From contig NZ_JAEVHM010000016.1 in assembly GCF_016802865.1 (NCBI RefSeq), forward strand, positions 1 through 59,066: 59,066 nucleotides of DNA. The letters are read 5' to 3'. Position 1 is the first letter of the stretch; each line of letters begins with the position of its first letter. Below are positions 11,883 through 45,804 of the stretch, one piece after another. Made by a program: the position numbers and the translations under genes. The notes under the pieces were generated by a model. The model did not search any database. It had not been told where the DNA came from and worked only from the letters and a program-made list of their open reading frames with translations. This DNA comes from Micromonospora parastrephiae. Lineage in GTDB: Bacteria > Actinomycetota > Actinomycetes > Mycobacteriales > Micromonosporaceae.

Positions 11883-11955
11883 GCGCCGCTAGCTCAACTG
11901 GCAGAGCAGCGGACTCTTAATCCGCGGGTTCGGGGTTCGAGTCCCTGGCGGCGCA
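11883..11955 (+). tRNA. tRNA-Lys (CTT anticodon), copy 1
   Basis: A complete cloverleaf with acceptor arms GCGCCGC/GCGGCGC and anticodon stem GCGGA/TCCGC with loop CTCTTAA. It is identical over all 73 bases to the copy at 22042. The 3' CCA is not encoded here. Confidence 0.96.
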
Positions 11956-11969
11956 CTTCTGATCAAGGT

Positions 11970-15481: not shown

Positions 15482-15599
15482 CCCGGGCACGCGGCACCCG
15501 GGGCGCAGGGAGTCGCCGGTCCACTGCCGGTGCTGCCATCAATCGTCGTACGTCTATAGTTGCGTCAATCACTAGATCATGGCCGTGGTTAGCGCGGCC

Positions 15600-15625
15600 G
15601 GATCGTCGAAGCGCTTCGACGATCC
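15600..15625 (+). promoter_or_regulatory. 26-bp perfect palindrome, LacI-type operator candidate
   Basis: A perfect 26-bp palindrome centred on GTCGAAGCGCTTCGAC, 89 bases before the GH3 start. The CGAA-N4-TTCG core with a central GCGC is typical of operators for LacI-family sugar regulators of actinomycete glycosidase genes. A TATAGT -10 candidate is at 15554-15559. No LacI gene is in the window. Confidence 0.65.
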
Positions 15626-15713
15626 GTCGTTCAGGCCCGTCAACCGGGTGTCGAGCCTGGCCACGCCGGTCTCGGCGCCCCTGGCGTCGGTCGTACGACA
15701 TGAGGAGAACCGC

Positions 15714-18697
15714 ATGCGGAACAGGCGCCTCCGGCGTGGAATCACCGCGCTCGCGCTCGCTTTGCTGGCCCTGCCGGCCGTTCCCGGCACCGCGCTCGCC
15801 GAACCCACCTACCCCTTCCGAGATCCACACCTGCCGGTGCACGCCCGGGTCGACGACCTGCTCGGGCGGCTCACCCAGGACGAGAAGATCTCGTGGCTGC
15901 ACCAGTACCAGCCAGCCATTCCCCGGCTGGGCATCGGCCTGTTCAAGACCGGCACCGAGGCCCTGCACGGGGTCGCCTGGTCGACCGACATCGACAACAA
16001 CGGCGCGGTCGTGAAGGCGCGCGGCACGTCCTTCCCCCAGCCGGTGGGCATGGCGAGCACCTGGGACCCCGACCTGATCCAGCGGGTCGGCTCGGCCGTC
16101 GGCGACGAGGCACGCGGCTACCACGCGCAGAACCCCCGAGTCTGGGGCCTCAACCTCTGGGCGCCGGTGGTCAACCTGCTCCGCGATCCCCGGTGGGGCC
16201 GCAACGAGGAGGGCTACTCCGAGGACCCGCTGCTCACCGCGGCCATCTCCACCGCGTACGGCTCGGGGATGACCGGCGGGGACCCGGACCACCTAAAGAG
16301 CGCCCCGACCCTCAAGCACTACCTGGCCTACAACAACGAGGTCCGGCGCGATGTCACCTCGTCGAACGTGCCCCCACGGGTGCTCAACGAGTACGACCGC
16401 GCCGCCTTCAAGCCGGCCATCGCCGCCGACGCGGCGACCGGCGTGATGGCCTCCTACAACCTGGTCAACGGCCGTCCCGCCACGGTGGATCCGGATCTTG
16501 CCACGGTGGTGCGCGGCTGGACCGACCAGCCGCTGATGAACGTCACGGACGCCTGGGCGCCGAACAACCTCGTCGCCTCCCAGGGGTACTACCCCACGCA
16601 GGCCGAGGCGAACGCCGCGATCATCAAGGCCGGCCTCAACAGCTTCATCACCGACGACACCAACGCGCAGCCGACCGTCACCGCCATCAAACAGGCGCTG
16701 GCGACCGGCCTGCTCACCGAGCAGGACATCGACGCCCGGATCCGGGAGATTCTCAACGTCCGGTTCCGGTTGGGTGAGTTCGACCCGGGCGGCGGCCGGT
16801 ACGGCGGCATCACCCCGGACGTCATCAACAGTCCCGAACACCAGCGACTCGCCCGGCAAGCCGCCGGCGAGGCGATGGTGCTGCTGAAGAACTCCCGGCA
16901 GGCCCTCCCGCTGGACCCGACCCGCACCCGCAAGGTCGCCGTCCTGGGCCCGCTGGCCGACACCCTCTACTCCGACTGGTACGGCGGCGACCTGCCGTAC
17001 GAGGTGACCGCACTCGACGGCATCCGGGAACGACTGGGCGGCTCGGCCACCGTCAGCGGGCTCGACGGGGCGGACCGGATCGCGCTGAAGGTCCCCGCGA
17101 CCGGCCGGTACGTGACGGCCACCGGCACCACCGACGCCGACCCGGTCGCCGCCACCGGCGCCACCGCCGAACTCGCCGCCCAGTTCGACGTGGTGGACTG
17201 GGGGCAGGACGTGGTGACACTGCGCAACGCCGCCAACGGCCGCTATCTCGGCTACAACTGGGGGCCGTTCCTCACCCGGGACGCGCAGCCGAACGGCTGG
17301 TACGTCCAGCAGCAGTTCAAGCTGGAGCCGCAGGCCGACGGTACGGTCGCGCTGCGCTACGCCGGCTACGAGACCACGGAGAGCTGGTTCGGCGCCGACA
17401 CGTACGTCACGGTCGCGCCGACGGCGCCCTCAAGCTCGGCGCGTCCACGGCGGCCGACGCGACCCACTTCAGTCGCGAGGTGCTCAGCAGCGGGATCGAC
17501 CGGGCCGTCGCGGCCGCCAAGGCGGCCGACACCGCCGTCCTGGTCGTCGGTAGTAACCCGTTCATCAACGGGCGCGAGGCGCACGACCGCACCTCCACCG
17601 CCCTGAGTGCCGGCCAGGAGGCGCTGGTCAAGGCCGTGACCAAGGCCAACCCGCGTACGGTGCTGGTGCTCCAGACCAGTTACCCGGTCACCATCGGATG
17701 GGAGCAGGAGCACGTTCCGGCCATCGTCTGGACCACCCATGCGGGCGCCGAGACCGGGCACGCCGTCGCCGACGTCCTGTTCGGCGACCGCAACCCGTCC
17801 GGCAAGCTCACCCAGACCTGGTACCGCTCGGACGGGCAACTGCCACCGGACCTGCTGGAGTACGACATCATCACGTCCGGGCAGACCTACCTGTACAGCA
17901 CCGCGAAGCCGCTCTACCCGTTCGGCCACGGGCTGTCGTACACCCGGTTCCGGTACGGCCAGCCGCGCACCGGCGCCACCTCGGTCGCGGCCGACGGCAC
18001 CATCACGGTCAGCGTCGACGTGACCAACACCGGCACTCGGGCCGGGTCCGAGGTCGTCCAGCTCTACACCCACCAGCGCACCTCGCGCGTCAAGACCCCG
18101 ATCCGCCAGCTCAAGGCGTTCCAGCGGGTGGAACTCGCGCCGGGGCAGACCCGGACCGTGACGGTGCGACTGCCCGCCGCCGACCTGGCGCACTGGGACG
18201 TCACCCGCAGCCGGTGGGTGGTCGAGTCGTCCGTGCACGACCTGATGGTGGGCGCGTCCGCCGAGGACTTCCGGGCGCGGACCGCGATTCGGGTACGGGG
18301 TGAGGTGATCCCCGCCCGTGACCTGTCCCGGCCCACCCGGGCGGAGAACTTCGACAGGTACTCCGGGGTTCGGCTGGTCGACGAGACGAAGGCCCGCGGC
18401 ACGGCCGTCGGTGCCACCGCGGCCGGCCAGTGGATCGCCTTCGCCGGTTCCGCGCTGCGTCCCGGCGCCCACACCCTCACCGCGAGGGTCGCCAGGGCGG
18501 ACGCGGGCGCCGGCACGATCCAGGTCCGGCTGGGCTCACCCACCGGCCGGCTGCTCGGCACGGCCACCGTGCCCAGCACCGGGGACGACTACCGGTACGT
18601 CAGCGTCAACGCTGAGTTGGCCCGCGCCGCCGGCACCCACGACGTGTACCTGGTGTTCGACTCCGCGCTGCGGCTGGCGGACTTCTCCATCAGGTGA
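15714..18697 (+). pseudogene. Secreted GH3 glycosidase (beta-xylosidase/glucosidase type), frameshifted
   Basis: Two frames join into one GH3 enzyme of about 994 residues. The first frame starts at ATG 15714 after GAGGAG, with a signal peptide and the (beta/alpha)8 domain (GTSFPQPVGMASTWD, DPRWGRNEEGYSEDP, LKHYLAYNNE). NVTDAWAPNN holds the probable nucleophile Asp. A beta-trefoil, fascin-like insert (about residues 455-560) splits the second domain. Near 17418 the frame must move by one missing base. The second frame then continues with the rest of the alpha/beta domain (GSNPFINGREAHDR), a fibronectin-III-like domain and a C-terminal carbohydrate-binding module (about 18350-18697). Left unrepaired, the first frame stops at 17606. 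A LacI-type operator lies upstream. Confidence 0.85.
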
Positions 18698-22041: not shown

Positions 22042-22114
22042 GCGCCGCTAGCTCAACTGGCAGAGCAGCGGACTCTTAATCCGCGGGTTCGGGGTTCGAG
22101 TCCCTGGCGGCGCA
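22042..22114 (+). tRNA. tRNA-Lys (CTT anticodon), copy 2; integration site
   Basis: A complete cloverleaf, identical to the copy at 11883, with CCA encoded at the 3' end (22115-22117). Its last 42 bases belong to the direct repeat shared with 45760-45804, so its 3' half was probably supplied by the integrated element. Confidence 0.96.
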
Positions 22115-22117
22115 CCA
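22073..22117 (+). repeat. attL: 45-bp direct repeat in tRNA-Lys
   Basis: From the anticodon loop to the encoded CCA, this stretch is identical base for base to 45760-45804. It is the left end of the integrated element. Confidence 0.85.
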
Positions 22118-25710: not shown

Positions 25711-26946
25711 TTACCAGCGCGGCCCTCCCGACCGGACACCCATCCGATCGCTGAGTTCGACGGCCAGTCGGGGTGGCCGGGGGCGGGTGAGGATGTCCCG
25801 AACGAGGTCGCGGGAGAGCTGGTGGTAGCGCACCTGGTCAGCGCCGATAACCTCTGCGTTCAGGAGCGCGGCGAGCGCGTCGTCGATGCGGTTCCACCGG
25901 GCAAGGGCTCGGGCGGTTTCGATGGCATGCCGAACCTGGCGCTCGACGGGCACGGTGCTGGTGTCGAGTGTGGCGCCGATGGCGATGGCGCGTTGCACGT
26001 CGCCGAGTTCCATCGCCACGGTCGTCTTGTGGATCGACACGTTGGTCGGCCCGAACGCGGTCCAGACGTGGTTGCCATCAGCACCGAGCCGCTGTGCGGT
26101 GGCATCGGCCTCCGTGATGTGGGTGTCGGCCGAGGCGCGGTCGTCGTCCCGGGCGGCGGCCAGCGCGCAGACGAGGTGCAGGCTGCCGTAGACCGACAGC
26201 AGCTGCGGAGTGGGTTTGGCGAGCCGTGGTTCCAGGAACTGCGCCGCCGTGGCGGCGAGGCCACGAGCCTGCGCATATTCGCCGATGGACGCCAGCGAGT
26301 GCGCGGCGGAGCGGCTGAGCGAGCCGATGACGACGTGGTCGTGGCTGGCGTTGGCGGCGGCCAACCCTCGGCTGGCTGCGGTCCACGCGAGGTCACCTTC
26401 GCCGAGCTTGGTGAGGAACAACGCGGCGAGCTGGTGGGCGTAGGCGGTCATCGCGTGCGCTCGCTGGCCATCGTCTCCGTCGTACGCCTCGGTGGCGGTG
26501 AGGCAGTCGTGGATGAGGTAGGGCAGTCGGCGGGCGAGGGTGCCGTATCGCGAGTGCTGGTAGGCGGTCCAGATCTCGGCGACGTCGTTCTCGATCTCGC
26601 GCAGAGCGGGCGCTTCGACGTCTCCCGTGCTGGCCAGCGTCGGCGCGAGGTGACGATAGTCGTGAAGCGCGGCCCGCAAGGCCGGGATGGTCTCGCGCCC
26701 TGAGTCGTCCGACCACTCGAACAGGCTCGGTGCACCGATCAGGTCGCCGAGGGACACGTCGAGGGCTTTGGCGATCGCGCGTATGACCGACAGCCGGTCG
26801 AGGTCGGCCCGGTTCGTCTCGACCTTGCGTAACCACTCCTGGGTCTTGCCGACCAGACCGGCTAGCACCTCTTGGGAGAGGCCTCGTCGACGTCGGTAGA
26901 AGGCGACGCGCTGGCCGATGGTCATGTCTTCCGTCATCCCTCGCAC
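25711..26946 (-). CDS. XRE-family regulator with TPR-like C-terminal domain
   Basis: A 411-residue protein. The N-terminal helix-turn-helix (IGQRVAFYRRRRGLSQEVLA, about residues 10-70) is followed by a long alpha-helical region of repeated Ala/Leu-rich helices, as in TPR-containing XRE regulators of actinomycetes. Such regulators often bind a signal through the helical part and control an adjacent operon. It diverges from the small genes and the radical-SAM cluster starting at 27101, so it is the best candidate regulator of that system. GTG 26946, with AGGG six bases upstream, is given; ATG 26937 or 26925 is possible. The target site may be the palindrome near 27001. Confidence 0.85.
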   Translation of the reverse strand: MRGMTEDMTIGQRVAFYRRRRGLSQEVLAGLVGKTQEWLRKVETNRADLDRLSVIRAIAKALDVSLGDLIGAPSLFEWSDDSGRETIPALRAALHDYRHLAPTLASTGDVEAPALREIENDVAEIWTAYQHSRYGTLARRLPYLIHDCLTATEAYDGDDGQRAHAMTAYAHQLAALFLTKLGEGDLAWTAASRGLAAANASHDHVVIGSLSRSAAHSLASIGEYAQARGLAATAAQFLEPRLAKPTPQLLSVYGSLHLVCALAAARDDDRASADTHITEADATAQRLGADGNHVWTAFGPTNVSIHKTTVAMELGDVQRAIAIGATLDTSTVPVERQVRHAIETARALARWNRIDDALAALLNAEVIGADQVRYHQLSRDLVRDILTRPRPPRLAVELSDRMGVRSGGPRW

Positions 26947-27471: not shown

Positions 27472-27815
27472 CCGGGCCACAGCGCCGCCTCGCGGCGAAC
27501 CGGCTCGCGCCAGCCGAGGTGGAACATCTGCCGATGCGCCCGCTGTGGCGGTGCCGCCGATGCGGGCAGCCGTGGCCCTGCGGCGCAGCGAAGCTCGCGC
27601 TCCTAGCCGAGTACCGGGAAGTGCCAGTGAGCCTGTTCCTCTACCTGGCCGGCTGCCTGCACGACGCGATCGACGATTTGCACCGGCTGAACCCGAGCGT
27701 CACGGGCAGCGCCGCGGACATGTTCTACCGGTTCCTCGGCTGGCCAGCCCGGCATACCCACGCCTACCGTGTCAGTACCACCACGGCCGTCAGCATCGAG
27801 GAAGCCTCCTCGTGA
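27468..27815 (+). CDS. Small CxxC protein of unknown function
   Basis: A 115-residue protein starting at GTG 27468 after GAGGG; the frame is open from 27423. The motif WRCRRCGQPWPCGAAKLALL looks like a half zinc ribbon. SLFLYLAGCLHDAIDDLHRL and DMFYRFLGW follow. Homologues in actinomycetes are often labelled flavin reductase, but no such domain is visible and I would not use that name. It overlaps its neighbours by GTGA on both sides, so it is translated together with the radical SAM gene. It could act as a partner or recognition factor for the peptide system; that is inference. Confidence 0.7.
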   Translation: MTGPQRRLAANRLAPAEVEHLPMRPLWRCRRCGQPWPCGAAKLALLAEYREVPVSLFLYLAGCLHDAIDDLHRLNPSVTGSAADMFYRFLGWPARHTHAYRVSTTTAVSIEEASS

Positions 27816-28948
27816 TCGGCATCGGTCTCATCACCGCCACCGGCCAGCCGGCGATCGCCGGCAGTTTCCACACCCTGGTCGTGCAGCCGACGAGCTTCTG
27901 CAACCTCGACTGCACCTACTGCTACCTGCCCGACCGGAGATCCCTCCGCCTGATGAGCGGCGCGGTCGCGCGGGCCTGTGCCGAGTCGATCGCCCAGCAG
28001 AACAGCAGTCATCCGGTGAGTGTCGTGTGGCACGGGGGCGAACCCACCGCCACACCCATCGGGCTGTTCCGGGAGCTGCTGGCCCCGTTCGAGGAGTTGC
28101 GGCGCGCGGGGCTGGTGCGTCATGAGATCCAGACGAACGCGACGCTGATCAACCGCCGGTGGTGCGAGTTGTTCACGGCTTACGGTTTCGAGGTTGGGGT
28201 CAGCATCGACGGACCGGGCGCGTTGAACCGTAACCGTCTCGACCGGGCTGGCAACCCCACGGGCGCCCGGACCCTGCGCGGCATGCAGACCCTGGCCGAC
28301 GCAGGGCTGAGGTACTCGGTGATCTGTGTGGTCACCCCGGAAACCATCGACCACGCGGGCGCCCTCGTCGACTTCTTCACCGGCCTGCCCGGCTGCGAGT
28401 CGGTGGGCTTCAACATCGAAGAGCAGGAGGGCGCCGACCGGGAACCGGTGTTGGAGGATGCCGCGTACCGGTTCTGGCAGCGACTCATCGCACGTCGCGT
28501 CGGCGGCAGCCCGCTGCGGATCCGCGACGTGGACCGGCTGGCCGACTACCTTGCCGCCACCCGTGCCGGGCTCGTCGACCACGCCCCCTACGAGCCGATC
28601 CCGACCGTTTCTTGGGATGGGAAGGTGGTGCTGCTGTCACCGGAGCTGCTCGGCATCAGCGAGCCGCGATACGGCGACTTCGTCGCCGGCAGCGTCCTCC
28701 AGCAATCCATCACCGCCATGCTCGCTCGCGCTGGCGACCTGGGCTACGTCGCCGAGTTCGTCGCAGCCCTCAACGACTGCGCCGACCTCTGCGCCTTCTA
28801 CGACTTCTGCCGTGGCGCCCAGGCGGGCAACCGCTACTTCGAGCACGCGACGTTCACCGCCCGAGAAACGGCCTACTGCCGGACCACCCGACAGGCCCTC
28901 GTTCGCGCTGCTGCGGATCACCTCACCCCTCAAGGAGGAGCACCATGA
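27812..28948 (+). CDS. amcB: Radical SAM/SPASM peptide maturase (cyclophane-forming type)
   Basis: A 378-residue enzyme. The radical SAM cluster motif is SFCNLDCTYCYLPDR (CX3CX2C, about residues 27-42). VVWHGGEPT follows, then EIQTNATLIN and GVSIDGPGALN, all typical of peptide maturases. The C-terminus has a SPASM-like Cys set (CADLCAFYDFCRGAQ and a later ETAYCRTT). Family knowledge: enzymes of this group join an aromatic side chain to the beta carbon of the residue two places on, forming three-residue cyclophanes. GTG 27812 overlaps the previous stop, and its stop overlaps the precursor ATG. The amcB name is from memory of the multiple-cyclophane family and is tentative. Confidence 0.85.
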   Translation: MIGIGLITATGQPAIAGSFHTLVVQPTSFCNLDCTYCYLPDRRSLRLMSGAVARACAESIAQQNSSHPVSVVWHGGEPTATPIGLFRELLAPFEELRRAGLVRHEIQTNATLINRRWCELFTAYGFEVGVSIDGPGALNRNRLDRAGNPTGARTLRGMQTLADAGLRYSVICVVTPETIDHAGALVDFFTGLPGCESVGFNIEEQEGADREPVLEDAAYRFWQRLIARRVGGSPLRIRDVDRLADYLAATRAGLVDHAPYEPIPTVSWDGKVVLLSPELLGISEPRYGDFVAGSVLQQSITAMLARAGDLGYVAEFVAALNDCADLCAFYDFCRGAQAGNRYFEHATFTARETAYCRTTRQALVRAAADHLTPQGGAP

Positions 28949-29127
28949 CCAACGCTCTCGCGACTCTCGTCAACGCCGCACCTGAGCTACTCGCTCGCCT
29001 CGGCGTCGACCAGGAGCGGTCGGTAGCGTCGATCGACGCGGCGAAGTTCGACAACCGCCCCAGCTGGGGAAACAAGGGCAAGTTCGACAGTCGACCCGGC
29101 TGGGACAACTGGAACAAGAAGAAGTAG
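28945..29127 (+). CDS. amcA: RiPP precursor peptide with five aromatic triads
   Basis: A 60-residue peptide starting at ATG 28945 after AAGGAGGAG, one of the strongest ribosome sites in the window, as suits an abundant precursor. Residues 1-33 form a helical leader (LATLVNAAPELLARLGVDQE). Residues 34-60 are the core, two 12-residue repeats KFDNRPSWGNKG and KFDSRPGWDNWN followed by a KKK tail. Aromatic-X-X triads F35-D-N37, W41-G-N43, F47-D-S49, W53-D-N55 and W56-N-K58 are likely cyclophane sites. No Gly-Gly cleavage motif or dedicated protease is visible nearby. The name amcA is tentative. Confidence 0.85.
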   Translation: MTNALATLVNAAPELLARLGVDQERSVASIDAAKFDNRPSWGNKGKFDSRPGWDNWNKKK

Positions 29128-29189: not shown

Positions 29190-29852
29190 ATGCGCACCAC
29201 CACGATCGGCGACGTGAAGGTTCTGCTGCCGGACCTCGAACCGGACGACCTCGACACCACGACGGACCTCGACGGCGGCCTCACCGAGGCCCTCGTCGAG
29301 GGCGCAGGGTGGCGCGGCTCGCACCTTGAGGACGCCAGCATCCGCAGCAGCTTGATCGCCGGCGTGGACCTGAGCGAGAGCACCTGGGAAGCCGGCAGCC
29401 TCTACGGCTGCGAGATCACCCGCACCGACTTCTCCGGAGCGACCCTGACCGGCATCACCATCGAACGCTGCGCGATCACCGGCTCCCGGTTCACCGGCAC
29501 CAAACTCACCGACGTACGGCTCAAAGACGTCCTGTTCGACGGCTGCCGCTTCGACTACGCCACCCTCCACCGCGTCACCGCAGCCGGCTCGGTCGCCTTC
29601 ACCGACTGCACCCTCACCAACGGCGCGTGGTCTTCCTGCCGACTACCGCGCATCGCGCTGCGGTCATGTGACCTCGCCGGACTGGAATTGGACTCCTGCC
29701 ACCTCGACGGCACCGACCTGCGGGGCAGCCGACTCGACGGGTTCAAGGCGCCGCTGGACAACCTGCGCGGCGTCACCCTTGGCGAGGACCAGCTTCCTGA
29801 CCTCACCCAGATGACCGTCGCCGCCCTCGCCCTCACCGTCCGCAACGACTGA
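29190..29852 (+). CDS. Pentapeptide-repeat protein
   Basis: A 220-residue protein starting at ATG 29190 after TTGAGGA. From about residue 45 it shows A(D/N)LXX-like five-residue repeats, for example SRFTGTKLTDVRLKDVLFDG and DLAGLELDSCHLDGTDLRGS, which form a right-handed quadrilateral beta-helix. Family knowledge: some members (Qnr, MfpA, McbG, AlbG) mimic DNA and protect gyrase from inhibitors, and McbG and AlbG are immunity proteins for gyrase-targeting natural products. Directly after a RiPP precursor, an immunity role is plausible but unproven. Many pentapeptide-repeat proteins have no link to gyrase. Confidence 0.88.
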   Translation: MRTTTIGDVKVLLPDLEPDDLDTTTDLDGGLTEALVEGAGWRGSHLEDASIRSSLIAGVDLSESTWEAGSLYGCEITRTDFSGATLTGITIERCAITGSRFTGTKLTDVRLKDVLFDGCRFDYATLHRVTAAGSVAFTDCTLTNGAWSSCRLPRIALRSCDLAGLELDSCHLDGTDLRGSRLDGFKAPLDNLRGVTLGEDQLPDLTQMTVAALALTVRND

Positions 29853-29867: not shown

Positions 29868-30437
29868 GTGCTCGCTGAACCCACGGGCAGCCCGGACACG
29901 ATCCTCGTCTGCATCCGGGGCAACTCTGGCTCGGGCAAGAGCAGCATCGCCCGCGAGCTACGACGCCGGCACGGCCGGGGCTGCGCCCTGGTCGAGCAGG
30001 ACTGCCTGCGCCGCATCCTGCTGCGCGAGCGGGACAAGCCCGGCGGCGCGGCACCGGCGTTGATCGGGCAGACCGTTCGGTTCGCGCTGGACCACGGGTA
30101 CCACGTGGTGCTGGAGGGCATCCTGCACAGCAGCCGCTATCGGGCGATGCTGACGGCTCTGCGGGATGGCCACCGGGGGCAATCGCTGTTCTGCTACCTC
30201 GACGTGTCCCTAGCCGAGACCCTGCGCCGGCACCTCACGCGCCCGCAGGTCAGTGAGTTCACGGCCGAGGACATGAGCGGCTGGTACGCCGCGCATGACG
30301 TCCTGGGCTGGTCTGACGAGCTCGTCCTTCCCGAGACGACAAGACTGGACGAGGCCGTCGAGGCCATCGCCGCTGTGGCTGGGCTACCCCAGACCGGACG
30401 CGACGACGACCGACTGCCGAACGTTCCGGCCCCGTAG
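29868..30437 (+). CDS. P-loop kinase/AAA_33-type ATPase, element copy
   Basis: A 189-residue protein starting at GTG 29868 after AGAGGAGG, 15 bases past the pentapeptide-repeat stop. The Walker A motif is RGNSGSGKSS (about residues 15-24). The later pattern (CALVEQDCLRRILLRERD, FALDHGYHVVLEGILHSSRY) fits the zeta-toxin/AAA_33-like small-molecule kinases. The substrate is unknown. A paralogue lies outside the element at 47169-47738; by eye they differ at about 26 of 180 residues, and their DNA is also highly similar. It may be part of the peptide operon or a captured chromosomal gene. Confidence 0.82.
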   Translation: MLAEPTGSPDTILVCIRGNSGSGKSSIARELRRRHGRGCALVEQDCLRRILLRERDKPGGAAPALIGQTVRFALDHGYHVVLEGILHSSRYRAMLTALRDGHRGQSLFCYLDVSLAETLRRHLTRPQVSEFTAEDMSGWYAAHDVLGWSDELVLPETTRLDEAVEAIAAVAGLPQTGRDDDRLPNVPAP

Positions 30438-31549: not shown

Positions 31550-32437
31550 GTGGATGATCCAGTCCTCCGGGTCCAGTCCCAGCTGACCGGCCGTGACCGT
31601 GTGCTGCTCGGCTGGTTGTACGACCACGGCGTGTTGACGTCGTTCCAGCTCGCGACCGCCTTGTTCCCGTCGTTGGACTTCTGTCAGCGGCGTCTGCGGA
31701 CCCTGTACCGGCTGCGGTTGGTGGCCCGGGTCCGACCGCAGCGTGCCGATGGCGGCTCGTACCCGTACCACTACGTGATAGATCAGCTCGGCGCTGAGGT
31801 CGTCGCGGCCAGCCGGGACGAACGCCCACCGCGGCGTGACCACGCCCGGGTGGAGCGGCGGCGCTGGACCTCGACCCGCAGCCTCGCGCACCGGCTCGGG
31901 GTGAACGGGTTCTTCACCGACCTGGCCGGGCACGCCCGCACCCGTGCGGGCACCGGCCTGGTGGAGTGGTTGCCGGAGGCGGTGTGCCAGCGCGCCGGTA
32001 CGTTCACCAGCCGGCAGGATCCGGGGCTGGTGCGGGCGTATCAGCCGCGGGTGCGCCCGGACGGCTACGGCCGGTGGGTCGACGGTGGCGCAGAGGTGCC
32101 GTTCTTCGTCGAGTACGACACCGGCGCCGAGCAGTTGTCGATCCTGGCCGGCAAGGTGGACGGCTATCAGGAGCTGTTCGGCACGCTCGGGCGGATGTGG
32201 CCGGTGCTGTTCTGGCTGCCCTCGGCCGCCCGGGAGCGCAACCTGCGCCGCGTGCTGGCCGACGTGCCGCTGATGGTGCCGGTGGCCACCGGGGCCCGCG
32301 ACCACGCCGCGACCGCCGGCCTGGGCCCAGCGGCGGCGGTGTGGGCCGTAGCCGGCGAGGAAGGGCAGCGGCTGCGGCTGGCTGATCTGGCCGGTTACGT
32401 CGTTGACGCCTCCAGCCGGGCGGGTGACGCCGCGTGA
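31550..32437 (+). CDS. Replication-relaxation family protein
   Basis: A 295-residue intact member of the family that is broken at 24084. The N-terminal winged helix (LTGRDRVLLGWLYDHGVLTS, then FQLATALFPSLDFCQRRLRT) is followed by a basic linker. A nuclease-like core follows with DGGAEVPFFVEYDTGAEQLS and LAGKVDGYQELFG, whose Glu, Asp and Lys fit a PD-(D/E)XK-like fold. Family knowledge: such proteins accompany replication or transfer genes of actinomycete elements. GTG 31550 follows AAGGAGGTGG closely. It starts the run that leads through DUF2637 and Xis to the integrase, with overlapping or close starts. Confidence 0.85.
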   Translation: MDDPVLRVQSQLTGRDRVLLGWLYDHGVLTSFQLATALFPSLDFCQRRLRTLYRLRLVARVRPQRADGGSYPYHYVIDQLGAEVVAASRDERPPRRDHARVERRRWTSTRSLAHRLGVNGFFTDLAGHARTRAGTGLVEWLPEAVCQRAGTFTSRQDPGLVRAYQPRVRPDGYGRWVDGGAEVPFFVEYDTGAEQLSILAGKVDGYQELFGTLGRMWPVLFWLPSAARERNLRRVLADVPLMVPVATGARDHAATAGLGPAAAVWAVAGEEGQRLRLADLAGYVVDASSRAGDAA

Positions 32438-32776: not shown

Positions 32777-33736
32777 GTGCGGGGTAGCCGCGTCGAGGGC
32801 GTCGTCCAGGTCGTCATCATGTTGGCCATTGGCGGGGCAGCCGGAGCGGCCAGCTTCACCCATGTGCACAACGTAGCCGCTGCGCACGGCCAACCCGGCT
32901 GGCTGGCTTGGGCCGACGCGATCGTTCTGGAGCTGATGTCCATCGCCTCCGGCCTGGAACTACGCCGCCGCAAACGCGCTCACACCTCGACCGTGTTCCC
33001 GGCCACCGTGCTGGCGTGTGCGGTCACTTTGTCCCTGGCGGCGCAGGTCGTCGAGGCCGAACCCTCGGTCATCGGGTGGATCACCGCCGCCGTACCCGCG
33101 CTCGGTTTCCTCGTCATGGTCAAGATCGCACTCGGCCGCACCAGCACCACCATGCCCGCCCCTGCCGTAACGGTGCTGGGATACCAGCCGGGTGAGTCAG
33201 GGCGGACCGTGGCGGACGGCGGACCAGGCGAGGCGACCCGGTCCGCCCTCACGGCGGGGGAGCGGTCCAGCATCAACCGGACCGTCCGCGCACCAGCTGC
33301 GGGCCGTAGGCGTGGCGGACGGGACCGGCAGCGGCGAGCGGACCGGGGACCGTCCGCGCAGCAGCCCGGCGACGTGGCCGAGCTGCTGCCGGCGGCGCGC
33401 AACATTCGGAACCGGCTCACCGCGGACGGGCAGGCACTGACCCGGGCGGCACTCGCCGAAGCGCTGCGCGCAGCCGGTCACACCGTGTCCAACACCCGAG
33501 TATCCGAACTCCTCAAAACCCTCAAGGTCGAATCGCAGGCACCACCCGAGCTGATCGCGAGCCCGACCGTGCCGACCAACCCGACGCCACCTCTGTCACC
33601 AGAGCGGCGCAACGGTGACGGAGCAGCCACCCCTGCGCCGGTCGACCCCGAAGGGGCTACCCCGCTCCTACCGCACAGCCATCCATCTCACAGCCAGGAG
33701 AACCCTGATCATGAACAGCCCAACGAACCCCGCTGA
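32777..33736 (+). CDS. DUF2637 (SpdB-like) membrane protein
   Basis: A 319-residue protein. Four hydrophobic helices (about residues 10-115) contain FTHVHNVAAAHGQPGWLAWA and DAIVLELMSIASGLELRRRK, the hallmark of DUF2637. A Pro/Arg-rich linker and a helix-turn-helix-like segment (LTRAALAEALRAAGHTVSNT) follow. Family knowledge: DUF2637 proteins resemble the Spd proteins that help actinomycete plasmids spread within the mycelium. The C-terminal DNA-binding-like part suggests that the protein links membrane and DNA. Its end overlaps the excisionase-like gene by 26 bases. No TraB partner is in the element. Confidence 0.83.
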   Translation: MRGSRVEGVVQVVIMLAIGGAAGAASFTHVHNVAAAHGQPGWLAWADAIVLELMSIASGLELRRRKRAHTSTVFPATVLACAVTLSLAAQVVEAEPSVIGWITAAVPALGFLVMVKIALGRTSTTMPAPAVTVLGYQPGESGRTVADGGPGEATRSALTAGERSSINRTVRAPAAGRRRGGRDRQRRADRGPSAQQPGDVAELLPAARNIRNRLTADGQALTRAALAEALRAAGHTVSNTRVSELLKTLKVESQAPPELIASPTVPTNPTPPLSPERRNGDGAATPAPVDPEGATPLLPHSHPSHSQENPDHEQPNEPR

Positions 33737-34121
33737 CCAGACAACCCGCACTACGACCGACAGCACTACCACCGTGTCCGGTGTCGGGGAGGTGTGGACG
33801 GTCGAGCGCATCCGTGCCCTCGGCGTCACCACCACCCTCGCCACCACCGCCTCGGTGCTCGGGATCAGCCGATCCCAGGCGTACCGGCTCGCCGCCGCCG
33901 ACCAGTTCCCCGTACCGCTGATCCGGGCCGGCAGCCGCATCATCGTCCCGGTTGCCGGCCTTCTTCAGCTCCTGCTGGTCGGGGACCCCGCTTCGACCGA
34001 CGACCACCGACGACTTGATGCCGACGCGAAGGTGAGCGTGGATGCGGTGACCCCGCCACCAGCGGATTCCACCCGGTACCGCTGGCGGCACCATACGAAG
34101 CATCCAGGAGACGATGAGTGA
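33711..34121 (+). CDS. xis: Excisionase-like HTH protein
   Basis: A 136-residue protein starting at ATG 33711 after AGGAGAA. The core GVTTTLATTASVLGISRSQA, then YRLAAADQFPVPLIRAGSRI, is a MerR-like winged helix of the HTH_17/excisionase type, here with a longer Thr-rich N-terminus and a charged tail. Family knowledge: Xis proteins bend attachment-site DNA and steer the integrase toward excision. The stop overlaps the integrase ATG (ATGA), the usual xis-int arrangement of actinomycete elements. The symbol reflects the role rather than a named orthologue. Confidence 0.8.
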   Translation: MNSPTNPADQTTRTTTDSTTTVSGVGEVWTVERIRALGVTTTLATTASVLGISRSQAYRLAAADQFPVPLIRAGSRIIVPVAGLLQLLLVGDPASTDDHRRLDADAKVSVDAVTPPPADSTRYRWRHHTKHPGDDE

Positions 34122-35593
34122 AGGGATCCACCTTCAAACGCTGCGGCTGCCGCGACAGCGTCACGGGCCGGCGATTGGGACGCTCCTGTCCCCAGCTGCG
34201 CCGGCCCGGCGGCGCCTGGTCCCGCACCCACGGCCACTGGCACTGGCAGATCGAAGTACCCGCCCGCGCCGACGGCACTCGCCGCCCGCTCCGCCACGGC
34301 CCCTACGCCACCCAGGCCGACGCCGACGCCGTTCTGGACCGCATCCGGGCCGTGCTCGCCGTCCCCGACCCCACCGACCCGCACACCACCGTCAAGACCG
34401 GCGACCTGATCGAGGCCGCCGTCAAGACCGGCGCGCCCGTTCCCACCTCGGACCAGGTCCGGCGGGCGCTGCACCTGGACATCACCCCGACCGAGCTGCC
34501 CACGATGGAGGCGTACCTGACCGACTGGCTCGCCGGGCGCAAGAACATCAAGACCGGCACGCTGCGCTCCTACGAAGGGCACATCCGGCTGTACCTGATC
34601 CCGCACCTCGGCCACCTGCGCATCGACCGGCTCCGCCCCGGCCACATCGACGCCATGTACAACGCCATCACCGAGCGCAACACCACCATCGCCACCCTGC
34701 GAGCCAGCCGCGACCCCGCCAAACGCGATGAGGTCAAGAACCAGCGCATCGTCGGCCTCAGAACCCTGCACGTCATCCACGCCACCCTGCGCAAGGCCCT
34801 CAACGACGCGATGGGCCGCCACCGCTACATCGACACCAACCCCGCCCTCATGATCGAACTACCCACCGCCCGACCACCCAAGCCCACCATCTGGACCGAC
34901 CAACGCGTCAAGACCTGGCGCGACACCGGCAAGGTCCCCAGCCCGGTCATGATCTGGACCCCCGAACACACCGGCCAGTTCCTCGACCACATCCACGACG
35001 CAGGCGACCGCCTCTACGCCCTTTACCACCTCATCACCTTCACCGGCCTCCGCCGAGGCGAAGCCTGCGGACTCCACTGGGACGATCTCGACCTCGACGC
35101 CCACACCCTCACCGTCCGCTGGCAACTCGTCCAACACGGCTGGGCCACCGCCATCGACACCCCGAAAACCACCGGCAGCGAAGGCGCGGTCGCTCTCGAC
35201 ACTGAGACCGTCGCGGTGCTGCGCGCCCACCGCACCCGGCAGCACCGCGAACGTCTCGCCGCCGGTGCTGCCTGGACCACTACCGGGCTCGTGTTCACCA
35301 CGCCCACTGGTGGTCGGCTCCACCCTGCTGACGTCACCGACCACTTCCATCACCTCGCCACGCAAGCCGGGCTACCACCCATCCGGCTTCACGACCTCCG
35401 GCATGGCGCCGCGACTATGGGACTCGCTGCTGGCGTCCAGATGAAGGTCATCTCCAACCGGCTCCGCCACTCCAGCCCACACTTCACCGCCAAGTTCTAC
35501 GGCGACGTCCTCCCAGAGCTGTCCCACGCCGCCGCCGAGGCCACTGCGGCCGTGGTACCACGACGGCGGGGCAATGGAGCGCAGACGGCATAG
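34118..35593 (+). CDS. int: Tyrosine recombinase (integrase)
   Basis: A 491-residue site-specific recombinase. After an N-terminal arm-binding domain and a SAM-like core-binding domain (about residues 125-250), the catalytic domain shows FTGLRRGEACGLHWDDLDL with the first Arg. IRLHDLRHGAATMGLAAG provides the HxxR pair, and FTAKFYGDVLPEL supplies the nucleophile Tyr. All catalytic positions are present. It should recombine the tRNA-Lys att sites at 22073 and 45760. It lies 10.2 kb from attR rather than beside it, with the restriction genes in between. The start is coupled to xis by an ATGA overlap. Confidence 0.92.
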   Translation: MKGSTFKRCGCRDSVTGRRLGRSCPQLRRPGGAWSRTHGHWHWQIEVPARADGTRRPLRHGPYATQADADAVLDRIRAVLAVPDPTDPHTTVKTGDLIEAAVKTGAPVPTSDQVRRALHLDITPTELPTMEAYLTDWLAGRKNIKTGTLRSYEGHIRLYLIPHLGHLRIDRLRPGHIDAMYNAITERNTTIATLRASRDPAKRDEVKNQRIVGLRTLHVIHATLRKALNDAMGRHRYIDTNPALMIELPTARPPKPTIWTDQRVKTWRDTGKVPSPVMIWTPEHTGQFLDHIHDAGDRLYALYHLITFTGLRRGEACGLHWDDLDLDAHTLTVRWQLVQHGWATAIDTPKTTGSEGAVALDTETVAVLRAHRTRQHRERLAAGAAWTTTGLVFTTPTGGRLHPADVTDHFHHLATQAGLPPIRLHDLRHGAATMGLAAGVQMKVISNRLRHSSPHFTAKFYGDVLPELSHAAAEATAAVVPRRRGNGAQTA

Positions 35594-35671: not shown

Positions 35672-36322
35672 TTATCCGAGGATTCTGGCGATGGCTAGGG
35701 CGATGCGTTCAACCCAGTCGATGGCATCCGTAGCATCTGCGTCGGTAATGCCGCGGCGCTGCTTAAGATCACCGTCGAGGAGGTCCGCCTCGTGGGCGAT
35801 CTTGTTGCGACGTTCGGTAATCGCCGTGTACTGCTTCTTCAACGTCTGCTCGGTCATCGCCGTCCGGCCATGGTTCCACTCGTTGATCTGGGCGGCCGCC
35901 TTGGCCCAGATGTTCTCCTCCGTCACAAGCTTGAGCGCCTCGCTGATCTTGCGAGGGTTCTGCAAGGAGGCGTTCGCCCATTTCGCCCGTACGTGATCAG
36001 AGACGGCACCGGCGAGCGTGGTGGTGCCTTGACGTATCTCCTCCACCTTCTCGAGCGGCAGCTCAAACCTGGTGAGCTGGTACGGCATGTTGGGGCTGTT
36101 CTGGCCAGCCAGGTCAGCCACGCGCCGGTACAGCTCTTCATGGAACCAGTGATCTATCGCGCTGACAGCCTGCACCCACGCGGCGCGATAGAAGTCGCCG
36201 ACGTCGAGGATGGGGGACTGGAACGCCGCCAGACTCCGTCCGGCGATGACCATCTTTCTGGCATACTCGATATTCATCCTAAATGCTTGGAACTCGCGCG
36301 TTCCTGGATGTCGATCTGCCAT
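35672..36322 (-). CDS. HEPN-domain protein next to type I restriction genes
   Basis: A 216-residue helical protein. RRNKIAHEADLLDG near residue 170 holds the R-X4-H motif of HEPN RNases, and the whole pattern fits the RiboL-PSP-HEPN group. It is the last gene of the unit hsdR-hsdS-hsdM-HEPN, 76 bases after hsdM. Family knowledge: HEPN proteins cut RNA and often serve as toxins or abortive-infection effectors. Here it could be a backup triggered when restriction fails. No antitoxin-like partner (MNT type) is next to it. ATG 36322 follows GGGAG. Confidence 0.72.
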   Translation of the reverse strand: MADRHPGTREFQAFRMNIEYARKMVIAGRSLAAFQSPILDVGDFYRAAWVQAVSAIDHWFHEELYRRVADLAGQNSPNMPYQLTRFELPLEKVEEIRQGTTTLAGAVSDHVRAKWANASLQNPRKISEALKLVTEENIWAKAAAQINEWNHGRTAMTEQTLKKQYTAITERRNKIAHEADLLDGDLKQRRGITDADATDAIDWVERIALAIARILG

Positions 36323-36398: not shown

Positions 36399-37958
36399 TT
36401 AGTCGATCTCCGTCGGCTGGGTCAGGTCGCTGTGAACCGGAACCTCTCCAGCGAGGGCCTCCGCGATGGCGGCAAACTCGGCCAGCGCAGCCTGCAGGTC
36501 GTCCACGATCTCTTGGGCGATCACCTCGGGCGGAAGCAGGCTGTCGGCATCGTCGAGTGCCGGATCCTTTAGCCAGGTGATGTCGAGGTTGACCTTGTCA
36601 CGCGCAATGAGTTCGTCGTAATCGAAAGACTTGAAGCGCTCCGACTCCACTCGCTCGCTGCGGGGCTTACCGGGCAGGTATGCCTCGACGAAGTCCTCTA
36701 AGTCTATCCGGCGCAGTGGGCGCTGCTTGAGGGTGAAGTGCTTGCCGGTGCGGAAGTCGTACACCCACAACGTTGAGGTGTTATGCCTGTCTCCGCTTCG
36801 TGGTGGCTTCTTTTCGAAGTACAGAACATTGGCCTTAACGCCGCCCGCGTAAAAGATGCCGGTTGGCAGACGCAGGATGGTGTGCAGGTCGAAGTCCTCG
36901 AGCAGGCGGCGGCGTACCTTCTCGCCCGCGCCGCCCTCGAACAGCACGTTGTCCGGCAACACCACCGCTGCCCGGCCGTTCATCGCCAGCAGCGACATAA
37001 TGTGCTGGAGGAAGTTGAGCTGCTTGTTTGTAGTGGTGGCGCCGAAGTCGTCCCGCTCGTAGGAGATGTCCTCCTTTTCGATCTTGCCATCCGTGCCCAC
37101 GACGGTGATGGCGGACTTCTTACCAAAGGGTGGATTGGCGAGCACGAGCGAGGCATGCCGCTTGGGCTTGTAGGCGAGGGCATCGCCCACCGTGATCAGA
37201 GAAGGGCCGTCGGCATCACCGATGCCGTGTAACAGCATGTTCATTGCCGCCAGCCGTGCCGTGCCGTTGACCAGCTCGGTGCCCCAGATCTTGCCGGCCC
37301 CTAAGGCGAGGCGCTGCTCGCGGGAAAGGTCCCGCATGTGGTTCTTACGGATGTAGTGGTGAGCGGCAATGAGGAATCCACCGGTCCCGCAGGCGGGGTC
37401 AGTGATGGTGTCTTCGGGTCCCGGCTGCATCACGTCGACCATCGCGTCGATGAGCGCCCGGGGCGTGAAGTACTGGCCGGCCCCGGTCTTGGTGTCCTCG
37501 GCACCCTTGGCCAGCAAACCCTCGTAAGCGTCGCCTTTGAGATCCGTCCCCTGGATCGTCCAGTCTTCCTTGCCGATCAGTTCAACGACGAGCTTTTCCA
37601 AGAGGGCGGGCTCGGTGATGCGGTTCTGCGCCTTAGCGAAGATGGTTCCAAGAGTGGTGCCGGGGTTCTTGGCTAGTGCAGCGAGGATCTCGCGGTAGTG
37701 GACTTCGAGGTCGAGGCCCTTGAGGCGGGCGAGTGACTTCCAGTCGTACTCGGCGGGTACGACAGTCCTTGCCTCCTGCTCGGTGAAAGGGTCCGAGGCA
37801 ATCTCGTCGGCCATCTTGAGGAAGAGTAGATACGAGAGCTGCTCGACGTACTCGATGGTGGACAGGCCGTTGTCCCGCAGGACGTTGCAGTAATTCCAGA
37901 GCTTGGCGACCAGGGCATTAGTCTGTGCGTGCATGTGGGCCGAGGATGTGATCGTCAC
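36399..37958 (-). CDS. hsdM: Type I restriction-modification methylase subunit
   Basis: A 519-residue N6-adenine methylase. An N-terminal helical HsdM_N domain (about residues 10-130) precedes GAGQYFTPRALIDAMVDVMQ. Motif I (DPACGTGGFL, about 190) and catalytic motif IV (NPPFG) are intact. It methylates the target sequence set by HsdS. GTG 37958 overlaps the hsdS stop by four bases, so M and S are made together. Order on this strand is R, S, M, HEPN, which is less usual than R-M-S. GC content is lower than that of the core genes, consistent with transfer. Confidence 0.93.
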   Translation of the reverse strand: MTITSSAHMHAQTNALVAKLWNYCNVLRDNGLSTIEYVEQLSYLLFLKMADEIASDPFTEQEARTVVPAEYDWKSLARLKGLDLEVHYREILAALAKNPGTTLGTIFAKAQNRITEPALLEKLVVELIGKEDWTIQGTDLKGDAYEGLLAKGAEDTKTGAGQYFTPRALIDAMVDVMQPGPEDTITDPACGTGGFLIAAHHYIRKNHMRDLSREQRLALGAGKIWGTELVNGTARLAAMNMLLHGIGDADGPSLITVGDALAYKPKRHASLVLANPPFGKKSAITVVGTDGKIEKEDISYERDDFGATTTNKQLNFLQHIMSLLAMNGRAAVVLPDNVLFEGGAGEKVRRRLLEDFDLHTILRLPTGIFYAGGVKANVLYFEKKPPRSGDRHNTSTLWVYDFRTGKHFTLKQRPLRRIDLEDFVEAYLPGKPRSERVESERFKSFDYDELIARDKVNLDITWLKDPALDDADSLLPPEVIAQEIVDDLQAALAEFAAIAEALAGEVPVHSDLTQPTEID

Positions 37959-39439
37959 AGCGGAAGCTCCTGCTGAACAGCGTTCGTGGGTGCGGGGATC
38001 GACGGCATGGAAGGCGGGGGTGACGCGGCCCTGACAGCTGCGGTCTTCCGGGGGTGGCGGGTGGAGCGCTTGGTCTTGCCGTCTCGGGCGCTGATCTGGT
38101 CGAGGAGGACGGAGGCCGGCTCGTCAGAGGGATTCTGCGGGACGAGCTTGCCAGCAAACGCCTGCCTCAAAATCGCCTGCCGGAGATGCCGAGATCGTAG
38201 GGAAATAAGCGCCAACTGCGAGGCAGAGCGCCTAGTCACTTCCAGCAGTTCGGCGGACCGTGCTACGAGGTCCAGTTGCTCATTCATCGGTGGAACGGGT
38301 AGGGGCAACTCGCGGCACGTTGAAAGCGCAATGTTGAACTGACCAGCAGTTGCCTTTGCTGTCTTTTGTAGCATGCCTAGGATGAATGGTGAACGAAGGG
38401 CGAGAGCTAGCCACTCAGGATGAACATCGGGACCTGCGCGGAAAGCAACAATTGCCTGGTTCATATTCCATTCTGGATGAAGATCTGGCACGACCGCCGT
38501 CTTGCCTAGTGGTGGGCCCACAATATTAGTAAGGACGTCCCCTGGTCGTACGCGCGATCGCTTCAGTGGGTGCTCGTGTGTCTCGCGATCGATATAGGTG
38601 GGCTTGTTAGTAAAGTCCACTCGTCCGTCCTGCGTGATGTTGTAAACTTTCAGGAAGGGAACGTCACCATTTCCTGGGTGCATCAAGTGAGCCGCAGGGG
38701 TGGAGCCACTGCAGATGAACTCACACACATCAGAGGAGCGGCGCCAGAACCATCCCACGGGCAGGGAAGGCAAGGCGGCGTAGTCGAAGCGCTTGCTTGC
38801 GAAACCGTCAAGCAAGTGGTGGCTGGCGTCGCTTGGGCTCGAGGCGGCGCTGATTGTGAATGTTCCGAGGACTGTCCTGTCCAACACAGAGGCACTGAAG
38901 GGCTTGAGGCGCCGTTTCGCGCCCGCAGCCGCTCTCATTGCTGCCTCTAGACGGGATAGGTGATGTTCGAGGGCCTCGACGATGCGATGTTGTTCTGCAA
39001 GCGGAGGGATGGCTGCCGGGAGCTCATCGAATCGCGAGCGCGTAATGTGGACCATTCCAGAACCGTGGGCAGCTGCCAGGATTTCTTGGATCTTGTAGTC
39101 TATGAGGTAACGGAGGAAGTCGCGATCGATGAACGGTTCGACTTTGAAGATGTGCTGATTCAAGGCAGCCTCGGGTCCGCGCCACAGGTAGGCACCCAGA
39201 GTGGCCGCCCATGAGACGAGGAGGTCGCCAGCGCGAACCGTGTGTCGTTCCTCAAGATTTCCGGCATAGTAGTTGAAGGATGCGGCTGAGCCGGTGAGAT
39301 TTTGGATGCGGATGATGGGGCGGCCGGTGTCCGACCATTCAGATTTTCTGAAACCTCGCCCATTGGTGTACTTGCCGAGGTCTCCCAGTCGCGCTCGAGC
39401 CCATCCAGCCGGAAGATCCACGTCACTCAAGCCGATCAC
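37955..39439 (-). CDS. hsdS: Type I restriction-modification specificity subunit
   Basis: A 494-residue HsdS with two target-recognition domains, each ending in a long helix. The first covers about residues 10-165 (PAGWARARLGDLGKYTNGRG, ending in PLAEQHRIVEALEHHLSRLE). The second covers about 210-420 (PVGWFWRRSSDVCEFICSGS, ending in PPMNEQLDLVARSAELLEVT). The tail is basic and Pro-rich. Two domains imply a bipartite DNA target, which cannot be predicted here. Its GTG overlaps the hsdR stop and its stop overlaps hsdM, so the three genes are tightly coupled. Confidence 0.9.
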   Translation of the reverse strand: MIGLSDVDLPAGWARARLGDLGKYTNGRGFRKSEWSDTGRPIIRIQNLTGSAASFNYYAGNLEERHTVRAGDLLVSWAATLGAYLWRGPEAALNQHIFKVEPFIDRDFLRYLIDYKIQEILAAAHGSGMVHITRSRFDELPAAIPPLAEQHRIVEALEHHLSRLEAAMRAAAGAKRRLKPFSASVLDRTVLGTFTISAASSPSDASHHLLDGFASKRFDYAALPSLPVGWFWRRSSDVCEFICSGSTPAAHLMHPGNGDVPFLKVYNITQDGRVDFTNKPTYIDRETHEHPLKRSRVRPGDVLTNIVGPPLGKTAVVPDLHPEWNMNQAIVAFRAGPDVHPEWLALALRSPFILGMLQKTAKATAGQFNIALSTCRELPLPVPPMNEQLDLVARSAELLEVTRRSASQLALISLRSRHLRQAILRQAFAGKLVPQNPSDEPASVLLDQISARDGKTKRSTRHPRKTAAVRAASPPPSMPSIPAPTNAVQQELPL

Positions 39440-42400: not shown

Positions 42401-42996
42401 AAATTTTCGGCCTCGGCGCGAGCCTTCCGCTCGGCCTCCAACGCACTGGTGGACTCCGCCAGGCGCACACGGGCCTGAGTCAGAGCCTTGTGATGACCGC
42501 TGAGAGCCTCGCGCAGCTCGGCCAGCTCGGCCGTGTCTGTCACCTGAGCGTTGTCGCCGGGGTCAATGGGTGGGACGAACTCGGCGACCGTTCGGCGACC
42601 CTCGATCGCGTCGTGGAACCACAGGCCGAGCTTGTAGCAGACCCGTACAGCGGCCAGGGCGCGCGCGGTGTCGAACAAGTGCCGGTGAGCGGCTCGGTTG
42701 CGGTCGCGACGCAACTGCTCGAAGTCGTCGCGGATCTCGCGGACGAGGACACCAGCTCTGGTGAGTGCGTTCAGCCGGTCGACTTGGCGGTCACCCTCGA
42801 CGCGCATCCCGATCCGGGTGACTAGCTCCTCGGCCAGAACCTCGCCGAACTGGCCAGCCTGCACAAGCGAAGAGTTCGGGTTGCTAAAGATGGTGGCCTC
42901 GGCCAGGGCGCCGTAGACGGACAGCAGAGGCTGGTGCGGGTACAGCACCCCGAAGTTCGGTGACGCCTTCGCAAGGTCACGAAGTCGCTCGTCCAC
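39436..42996 (-). CDS. hsdR: Type I restriction endonuclease subunit R
   Basis: A 1186-residue protein. An N-terminal helical DUF4145-like region and coiled coil (about residues 100-230) precede the HsdR_N nuclease domain, with GRADYVLYIDGKIVGVVEAK as its PD-(D/E)XK core. The helicase part follows with Walker A QMATGAGKTF, DECHRS, and a second RecA-like domain (VTVDMIATGTDVKALECVIF). The C-terminal helical domain contacts the methylase. Family knowledge: it translocates DNA and cuts unmethylated targets. GTG 42996 follows GGGGAGGG. It is the first gene of the restriction operon and is intact, so the system is probably active. Confidence 0.93.
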   Translation of the reverse strand: MDERLRDLAKASPNFGVLYPHQPLLSVYGALAEATIFSNPNSSLVQAGQFGEVLAEELVTRIGMRVEGDRQVDRLNALTRAGVLVREIRDDFEQLRRDRNRAAHRHLFDTARALAAVRVCYKLGLWFHDAIEGRRTVAEFVPPIDPGDNAQVTDTAELAELREALSGHHKALTQARVRLAESTSALEAERKARAEAENLIASADSNRTQLLARVEQLTVQIEELRNAQHTKYEAARRQPRPVDAKGREAIIHRAQRPAPLNEVQAREVIDEMLRKSGWVIQDRNQVNPMAAQGVAVREFTLATGRADYVLYIDGKIVGVVEAKREGDHLSSAVEQNDRYAAGVLKEHSLAVWRKAEPFAFRYATTGTETYFINRLDPDARSREVFWFHRPETIVAWMQRADETPSAPTFRAALRRLPVLEPHGLRLAQIDAISGLEKSLAEDLPRALIQMATGAGKTFMAVAQTYRLLKYTQARRVLFLVDRNNLGKQAYDEFRKFTTPDDGRKLSDIYNVDRLGAAGLQDTSSVVICTIQKMYSLLRGETLTDDAQADEASDSTAYEDPYATDQPIDVTYNPQVPIESFDVIVVDECHRSIYGLWRGVLEYFDAHLVGLTATPTLQTLGFFGRNLVSEYTYPQAVADGVNVDFDVVRMRTDLREKGAATIDAGTTVRVRDRKTRRQRYHELDDDFTYTTGQIGRSVVAVDEIRAVLTAYRDNWRRWFPGRSELPKTLIFAVGEDHAEDVLALVKEVFGQGDDFAKKITYKSRQAGENPDELIRALRTSPRLRVAVTVDMIATGTDVKALECVIFLREVRSAVLFEQMKGRGARTIDPTELQEVTPDADASVRKDRFVLIDAVGVTESPMVDAKPLVPAGERQVSLAKLLDKAGTKSISASEAEILAGRLARLNQQLTDEERELLTRASGGRTLSQIASAIVAAVDPDRQEQAREEGGHAAARKLIEDALAPLTEHPELRRHIIEIRRDKDYLFDEFTAVEVTDVQEVPREERAREQIGRWSQLLEKERDRIAAVSIALTSPRSVSPAETYTALQELAVKIRRPDYAWTPQALWAYYEDLGAATHSPDREAGVPDLISLIRYELGVDDELRPYRETVEERFEGWLLRQRQAGTEFTEEQLWWLRSIRDVVASDVGISPAEFNAEPFKGRGGGRGFAHVFPGRDVRALLSELNRELA

Positions 42997-45759: not shown

Positions 45760-45804
45760 CTCTTAATCCGCGGGTTCGGGGTTCGAGTCCCTGGCGGCGC
45801 ACCA
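45760..45804 (+). repeat. attR: 45-bp copy of the tRNA-Lys 3' end
   Basis: Identical to 22073-22117, from the anticodon loop to CCA. The upstream sequence does not continue into a tRNA 5' half, so this is not a gene. It marks the right end of the integrated element. Confidence 0.88.

Follow-up and report, generated by a model that had tools for sequence, protein, structure and literature searches.

What does the peptide made by a radical S-adenosylmethionine (SAM) maturase and its small aromatic precursor act on, and what protects the cell that makes it? This question is raised by a locus of Micromonospora parastrephiae on contig NZ_JAEVHM010000016.1 (assembly GCF_016802865.1), whose 59,066 nucleotides were analysed as a whole and are called the window below. 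A preliminary description of the window had recognized the maturase gene, amcB, and the precursor gene, amcA, as a pair. The pair stands, and what had been overlooked is a conserved third gene, which encodes a pentapeptide-repeat protein (PRP), and the mobile element that surrounds all three. We propose that amcB, amcA and the PRP gene form a conserved unit whose predicted product is a peptide bearing four or five three-residue cyclophanes, and that the PRP likely protects the producer's own gyrase or topoisomerase IV by target protection; we give this reading a probability of roughly 55%. Immunity is favored because the PRP is linked to loci with type 1 AmcA, has a Qnr-like predicted fold and is kept under constraint after repeated loss of amcB, and because of the precedents set by McbG, AlbG, speirobactin and the pyxidicyclines.

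The amc maturase, its precursor and the linked PRP

The maturase scored 554 bits against NCBIfam NF041718 (AmcB, rSAM_phane_AMC, an equivalog model with a cut-off of 425), and the precursor scored 60.3 bits against NF041721 (AmcA type 1, phane_AmcA_1, also an equivalog; cut-off 40). The Amc type suggested in the preliminary description is thus upheld by both curated models, and the maturase did not fall in an unrelated radical SAM family; it also scored under the cut-offs of the GrrM/OscB, XyeB and FxsB models. The CX3CX2C motif attributed to the enzyme was confirmed, with C30, C34 and C37 invariant in an alignment of 11 sequences. The term "SPASM-like" for its end is loose: PF04055 (radical SAM, 64.4 bits) was the sole Pfam domain above cut-off, and no Pfam match to SPASM was found up to E 1, but C323, C327, C333 and C356 are invariant in the same alignment. 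A class-wide AmcB search at E 0.001 gave matches in 192 of 394 genomes, with 8 above the cut-off, and a plasmid search for AmcB relatives returned six records, every one GrrM-type at 31-34% identity.

As had been described, amcA encodes a 60-residue peptide, overlaps amcB by ATGA and has a strong ribosome-binding site, AAGGAGG, six bases before the ATG. The peptide holds five aromatic-X-X triads, namely F35-D-N37, W41-G-N43, F47-D-S49, W53-D-N55 and W56-N-K58. Among 24 non-core precursors, hand-picked to limit redundancy, Asn occupied position i+2 of Phe, Trp or Tyr at 88 of 125 aromatics, compared with 16.1 on average and never more than 29 across 2000 shuffles, and aromatic-X-Asn triads therefore occur beyond chance; the other residues at i+2 were Lys (22), Ser (12), Asp (2) and Arg (1). 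In related enzymes the link is described as running from Trp or Phe to the beta carbon of an Asn, Asp, Arg or Ser two positions further on (PMC11002830), and by analogy we infer that AmcB forms such links in AmcA. The earlier reading of the locus as one for a cyclophane-bearing, ribosomally synthesized and post-translationally modified peptide is hence supported, the product itself being predicted.

Linkage of the PRP to amcB was evident across genera. When families of open reading frames (ORFs) of at least 90 amino acids were compared among 12 loci chosen for diversity, amcB and the PRP gene were the only sense-strand families common to every locus; ORFs antisense to these two genes or in shifted frames clustered as well, and amcA lies below the length limit. 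Other neighbors were an XRE/NsdA-like regulator (7 loci), a gene of an unknown family (6) and a Nudix-hydrolase-like gene identified by eye (5). With a profile built from 40 PRPs, a PRP was found to adjoin all nine AmcB loci from named genera other than Micromonospora, Salinispora and Verrucosispora (L023 and L025-L032, from Virgisporangium, Catellatospora, Streptomyces, Streptantibioticus and Kitasatospora). Eight further AmcB loci yielded a PRP in seven cases (L055 was without), including all five above the AmcB cut-off, and the association persists down to about 26% PRP identity. The same profile detected no PRP at nine core AmcB loci (eight genomes), at eight distant radical SAM loci with wide flanks, at 19 such loci with 1.5-kb flanks, at the partial Micromonospora loci L024, L038 and L041, or at L191 and L081; L039 has one. 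The notion of a PRP as a fixed part of all AmcB systems was rejected, none being present at the nine core loci or at L191 and L216.

The core loci represent a second AmcB type. AmcB was above cut-off in all 160 Micromonospora genomes searched, and all 30 genomes that carry the window type also have a second AmcB match, the source genome of the window carrying both; this fits a core AmcB copy throughout the genus, with nine core loci inspected (L126, L127, L128, L192-L196 and L198). Like the window, the core system of L126 and L127 has AmcB above cut-off and F-X-N and W-X-N triads in its precursor, which ends in CAWNHFENIPTFYNWNNRPR. Unlike the window, it has no PRP nearby, and its maturase shares only about 40% identity with that of the window. 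In L126 and L127 the core AmcB adjoins purM- and purF-like genes (identified by eye), and the precursors there match AmcA_3a at 118.2 and 120.9 bits (cut-off 65). The position of a vertically inherited AmcB beside purine genes hints at a non-toxic role.

Loss of amcB and retention of the PRP

PRPs were searched for at E <= 1e-20 over the 160 Micromonospora genomes. Matches occurred in 81 of them, and 91 PRP loci were classified, fragment matches (G469 785509, G474 2608, G545 4648311; short) being left unclassified. Window-type amcB, taken as full-length genes of at least 75% identity, was patchy (30/160 genomes), and 29 of these 30 genes adjoin a full PRP. The 80 full PRPs comprise 29 next to full amcB, 15 next to a remnant and 36 with no amcB, defined as no same-strand match inside 2.5 kb (L159 has 665 bases upstream only); an amcA piece persists in 14 of these 36. 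Eleven PRPs were broken, one at a full amcB (G415, by a frameshift), three at remnants and seven without amcB, where some frameshifts are possibly assembly errors (e.g., G415, G497, G508 and G426) and L163 is broken by a strict rule, its counterpart L019 in another collection having an open frame of 207 residues. Hence, the PRP was kept and the maker lost at 51 loci, and the reverse was seen at one. Three window-type loci outside the 91-locus table (L217, L218 and L219) have lost both genes.

These orphan PRPs are scattered. In a quick tree built from the 80 PRP genes, the orphan state has to change 23 times, and the starred branches force 15 or more of these changes; with shuffled labels the average is 23.8. 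The label is therefore unclustered, and the 51 orphans are not one lineage. Remnants persist at 29 orphans, in 28 distinct footprints. Twelve orphans retain a near-full amcA with no full amcB nearby (L139, L140, L146, L150, L151, L155, L156, L158, L162, L168, L169 and L175), and the left-hand neighbor genes are kept in only 14 of the 51. A useless gene is expected to drift. The orphan PRPs show no sign of drift and are still under constraint: the median dN/dS (ratio of nonsynonymous to synonymous substitution) was 0.30 where the PRP is paired and 0.29 in each of the two orphan classes, as pairwise values that also span the time before the loss. Because the PRP remains constrained where the maker has been lost, a pure toxin-antitoxin (addiction) role is disfavored.

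Candidate targets and competing explanations

The predicted structure of the PRP consists of pentapeptide repeats forming a quadrilateral beta helix with a C-terminal helix, a Qnr-like fold. Its top match in the PDB was EfsQnr, both by profile and by VIA-align, followed in sequence profile and structure by PENT, which has no confirmed function, and then by AlbG. The C-terminal helix is described as forming the dimer in gyrase-acting PRPs (PMC8145042), and structural alignments of EfsQnr, MfpA and AlbG with the window PRP gave identities of 11-23%. The PRP scored under the NCBIfam cut-offs for Qnr (41.8 vs 240 bits) and MfpA (31.6 vs 360 bits), and we therefore say that it may work like a gyrase-acting PRP, not that it is one. 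Precedents for such protection exist. McbG, a PRP, protects the producer of microcin B17, a gyrase-acting peptide (PMC6795089); AlbG, another PRP, protects against gyrase-acting albicidin (PMC8145042); the producer of speirobactin, also gyrase-acting, is protected by a PRP (PMC12406682); and PRP-guided mining yielded the pyxidicyclines, which are topoisomerase inhibitors (PMC9231227). Under the proposed mechanism, AmcB would bind the AmcA leader and, like known three-residue cyclophane enzymes, cross-link every Phe or Trp to the residue at i+2 through the beta carbon of the latter; an unlinked protease would remove the leader, an unlinked exporter or lysis would release the product, and the producer would be protected by a PRP dimer that occupies gyrase in the manner of EfsQnr, MfpA and AlbG.

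PRPs can also protect targets other than gyrase, as HetL, a PRP, shields HetR from the peptide PatS (PMC7476756). The main rival is accordingly that the window PRP confers immunity at another target, such as a regulator, a receptor or another enzyme; we consider it unlikely, as the closest fits are EfsQnr and, after PENT, AlbG, together with the C-terminal helix of gyrase-acting PRPs. Somewhat less probable still is that the PRP gives general protection against topoisomerase poisons or other stress and merely rides beside amcA, unspecific to the Amc product. This would suit the abundance in the class of PRPs of the wider profile without amc genes, as well as the 22 of 51 orphans that have no remnant, but the PRP adjoins AmcB to about 26% identity across genera, where other conserved neighbors occur in at most 7 of 12 loci, and it is missing from the core AmcB loci. 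We regard as improbable that the Amc product is a signal or housekeeping peptide, not an antibiotic, with the PRP as its partner in that role. The presence of AmcB in every Micromonospora genome searched, the nine core loci without a PRP and the two core precursors that match AmcA_3a speak for it, and they make it unlikely that all AmcB systems are toxin-immunity pairs; the window type, by contrast, is patchy, lies on an element here, decays often and carries a PRP.

Several observations weigh against protection of gyrase or topoisomerase IV as proposed here. The fold alone was rejected as proof of a gyrase target, as the fit of HetL is nearly as good as that of QnrB1. PRPs are widespread, with class-wide profile matches in 127 of 394 genomes, and neither amcA nor amcB was found in 17 regions fetched around such matches. 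At the 22 orphans lacking a remnant the PRP could have been gained alone, and the dN/dS values include the time before loss.

Known systems offer partial parallels. The triceptides of the 3-CyFE enzymes XncB, OscB and MscB likewise pair a radical SAM gene with a short precursor rich in aromatic-X-Asn/Ser, with Trp-Asn, Phe-Asn and Phe-Ser links known (PMC11002830), whereas W56-N-K58 has no counterpart among the links given there and the AmcA cross-links are predicted. Microcin B17 and McbG similarly unite a modified ribosomal peptide and a PRP immunity protein in one cluster, but the peptide chemistry differs and the cluster has the export genes McbE and McbF, of which none was found here (PMC6795089). 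Close relatives of the window pair are already named AmcB and AmcA in NCBI records; the NCBIfam model names are silent on a PRP, and what this work adds is the PRP as a partner, its orphan copies and the element. No target of AmcA/AmcB products was given in the literature searched, though the pairs are named in databases. Joint searches for cyclophane and pentapeptide repeat, or for AmcB and radical SAM, found no paper, which does not establish absence from print, the primary triceptide papers being outside the search.

Genomic setting, other AmcB relatives and implications

The unit lies in an element of 23.7 kb (22042-45804) that has an integrase and the tRNA-derived attachment repeats of an actinomycete integrative element, as well as DUF2637 genes (Table 1). 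The amc genes stand between both repeats and would therefore travel with this tRNA-Lys element; an integrase of one family is found about 5-9 kb past amcB in the window and in L001, L010 and L016. An FtsK-type DNA translocase is the transfer feature of actinomycete integrative and conjugative elements. Pfam detected no FtsK-type transfer gene, transporter or peptidase among 21 scanned ORFs of 22118-45804, some ORFs of the element being outside the scan, and to that extent the earlier statement that no export gene or protease is nearby holds. By eye, no exporter or peptidase was seen among families common to at least three of the nine loci outside Micromonospora and Salinispora, of which only the unknown-family gene was scanned, with no match. 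No structured RNA besides the tRNA was found in 22000-46000 at Rfam gathering cut-offs. The P-loop kinase-like gene adjoins 43 of the 80 full PRPs in Micromonospora and is therefore no constant part of the unit. The likely regulator scored 43.9 bits against the NsdA model NF053720, under the cut-off of 75.

Table 1. Positions of the amc unit, the surrounding element and other AmcB genes (window coordinates unless a locus or contig is given)
Feature	Position	Strand	Basis or remark
tRNA-Lys (CTT)	22042..22117	+	ARAGORN; Rfam tRNA
Left attachment repeat, last 45 bases of tRNA-Lys	22073-22117	+	exact repeat
XRE-type regulator with NsdA-like tetratricopeptide-repeat part, likely regulator	25711..26946	-	PF13560, 41.5 bits, over cut-off
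amcB, radical SAM maturase, 378 aa	27812..28948	+	GTG start, TGA stop; NF041718, PF04055, alignment
CX3CX2C motif of amcB (C30-X3-C34-X2-C37)	27899-27922	+	
C-terminal cysteines of amcB (C323-C356)	28778-28879	+	alignment
Ribosome-binding site of amcA	28932..28938	+	read from sequence
ATGA overlap of amcB and amcA	28945-28948	+	sequence
amcA, precursor	28945..29127	+	ATG start, TAG stop; NF041721
Predicted AmcA core with the five triads	29047..29124	+	sequence; Asn enrichment at i+2 over shuffles; leader boundary approximate
PRP, 220 aa, predicted immunity (target-protection) protein	29190..29852	+	directly 3' of amcA
P-loop kinase-like protein	29868..30437	+	NCBIfam PRK06762.1-3, 337 bits, cut-off 258
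Replic_Relax protein	31550..32437	+	PF13814, 183 bits
Excisionase-like helix-turn-helix gene	33615..34121	+	HTH_17 and AlpA matches under cut-off
Tyrosine integrase	34118..35593	+	PF00589, 62 bits; PF14659, 30 bits
HEPN-like gene	35672-36322		under Pfam cut-off
Type I restriction-modification genes	36399-42996 and 43568-45579		
Right attachment repeat, exact 45-bp copy of tRNA-Lys 3' end	45760..45804	+	exact repeat
Core AmcB	G000 C113:47639-48706 (L126 7613-8746)	-	517.7 bits (L126)
Divergent full-length AmcB genes	L191 5469-6563; L216 7408-6326		above cut-off, without nearby PRP or recognizable AmcA

Other relatives of AmcB were encountered. The full-length genes at L191 and L216, at 48% (G399) and 43% (G535) identity, may be lone maturases or have precursors of an unrecognized kind. 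A tandem pair of AmcB-like radical SAM genes (G533 C1:620924-623240) scored 290 and 288 bits, under the AmcB cut-off. A Ruegeria peptide (L040 9693-9980, + strand), just 5' of a distant maturase relative, ends in a run of W-X-N/W-X-D repeats and is likely a many-ring cyclophane precursor. Six Streptomyces-type loci (L027-L032) have a fourth gene 3' of the PRP, about 2.0-2.9 kb past the amcB start, which encodes 230-259 residues with an invariant HxDNWD stretch followed by invariant histidines and has no Pfam or NCBIfam match; judged by eye, it may encode a 2-oxoglutarate/iron oxygenase with a tailoring role in peptide maturation. An AlphaFold model of this protein was discarded as evidence (pLDDT, predicted local distance difference test, 42). 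Elsewhere in the window, there is another tRNA-Lys copy at 11883-11956, and a glycoside hydrolase family 3 gene at 15579-18697 is seemingly split across two overlapping ORFs, the first covering the N-terminal domain and the beginning of the C-terminal one and the second the remainder and CBM_6, which appears to be a frameshift or an assembly error.

A linked gene with a predicted fold like that of gyrase-acting PRPs, constrained after loss of the maker, would point to where these little-studied cyclophane peptides act, and the PRP-free core AmcA_3a system provides a natural contrast within the same genus. We tentatively suggest, with more doubt than for the immunity function itself, that type 1 AmcA peptides, with their aromatic-X-Asn cyclophanes, are ribosomal topoisomerase poisons of a new class, carried on integrative elements together with a Qnr-fold immunity gene, and that Micromonospora strains that keep the PRP without the maker may be resistant neighbors in a peptide arms race. 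If this is true, radical SAM cyclophane peptides would supply gyrase inhibitors that differ from quinolones, and active members of the family could be sought by way of the PRP.
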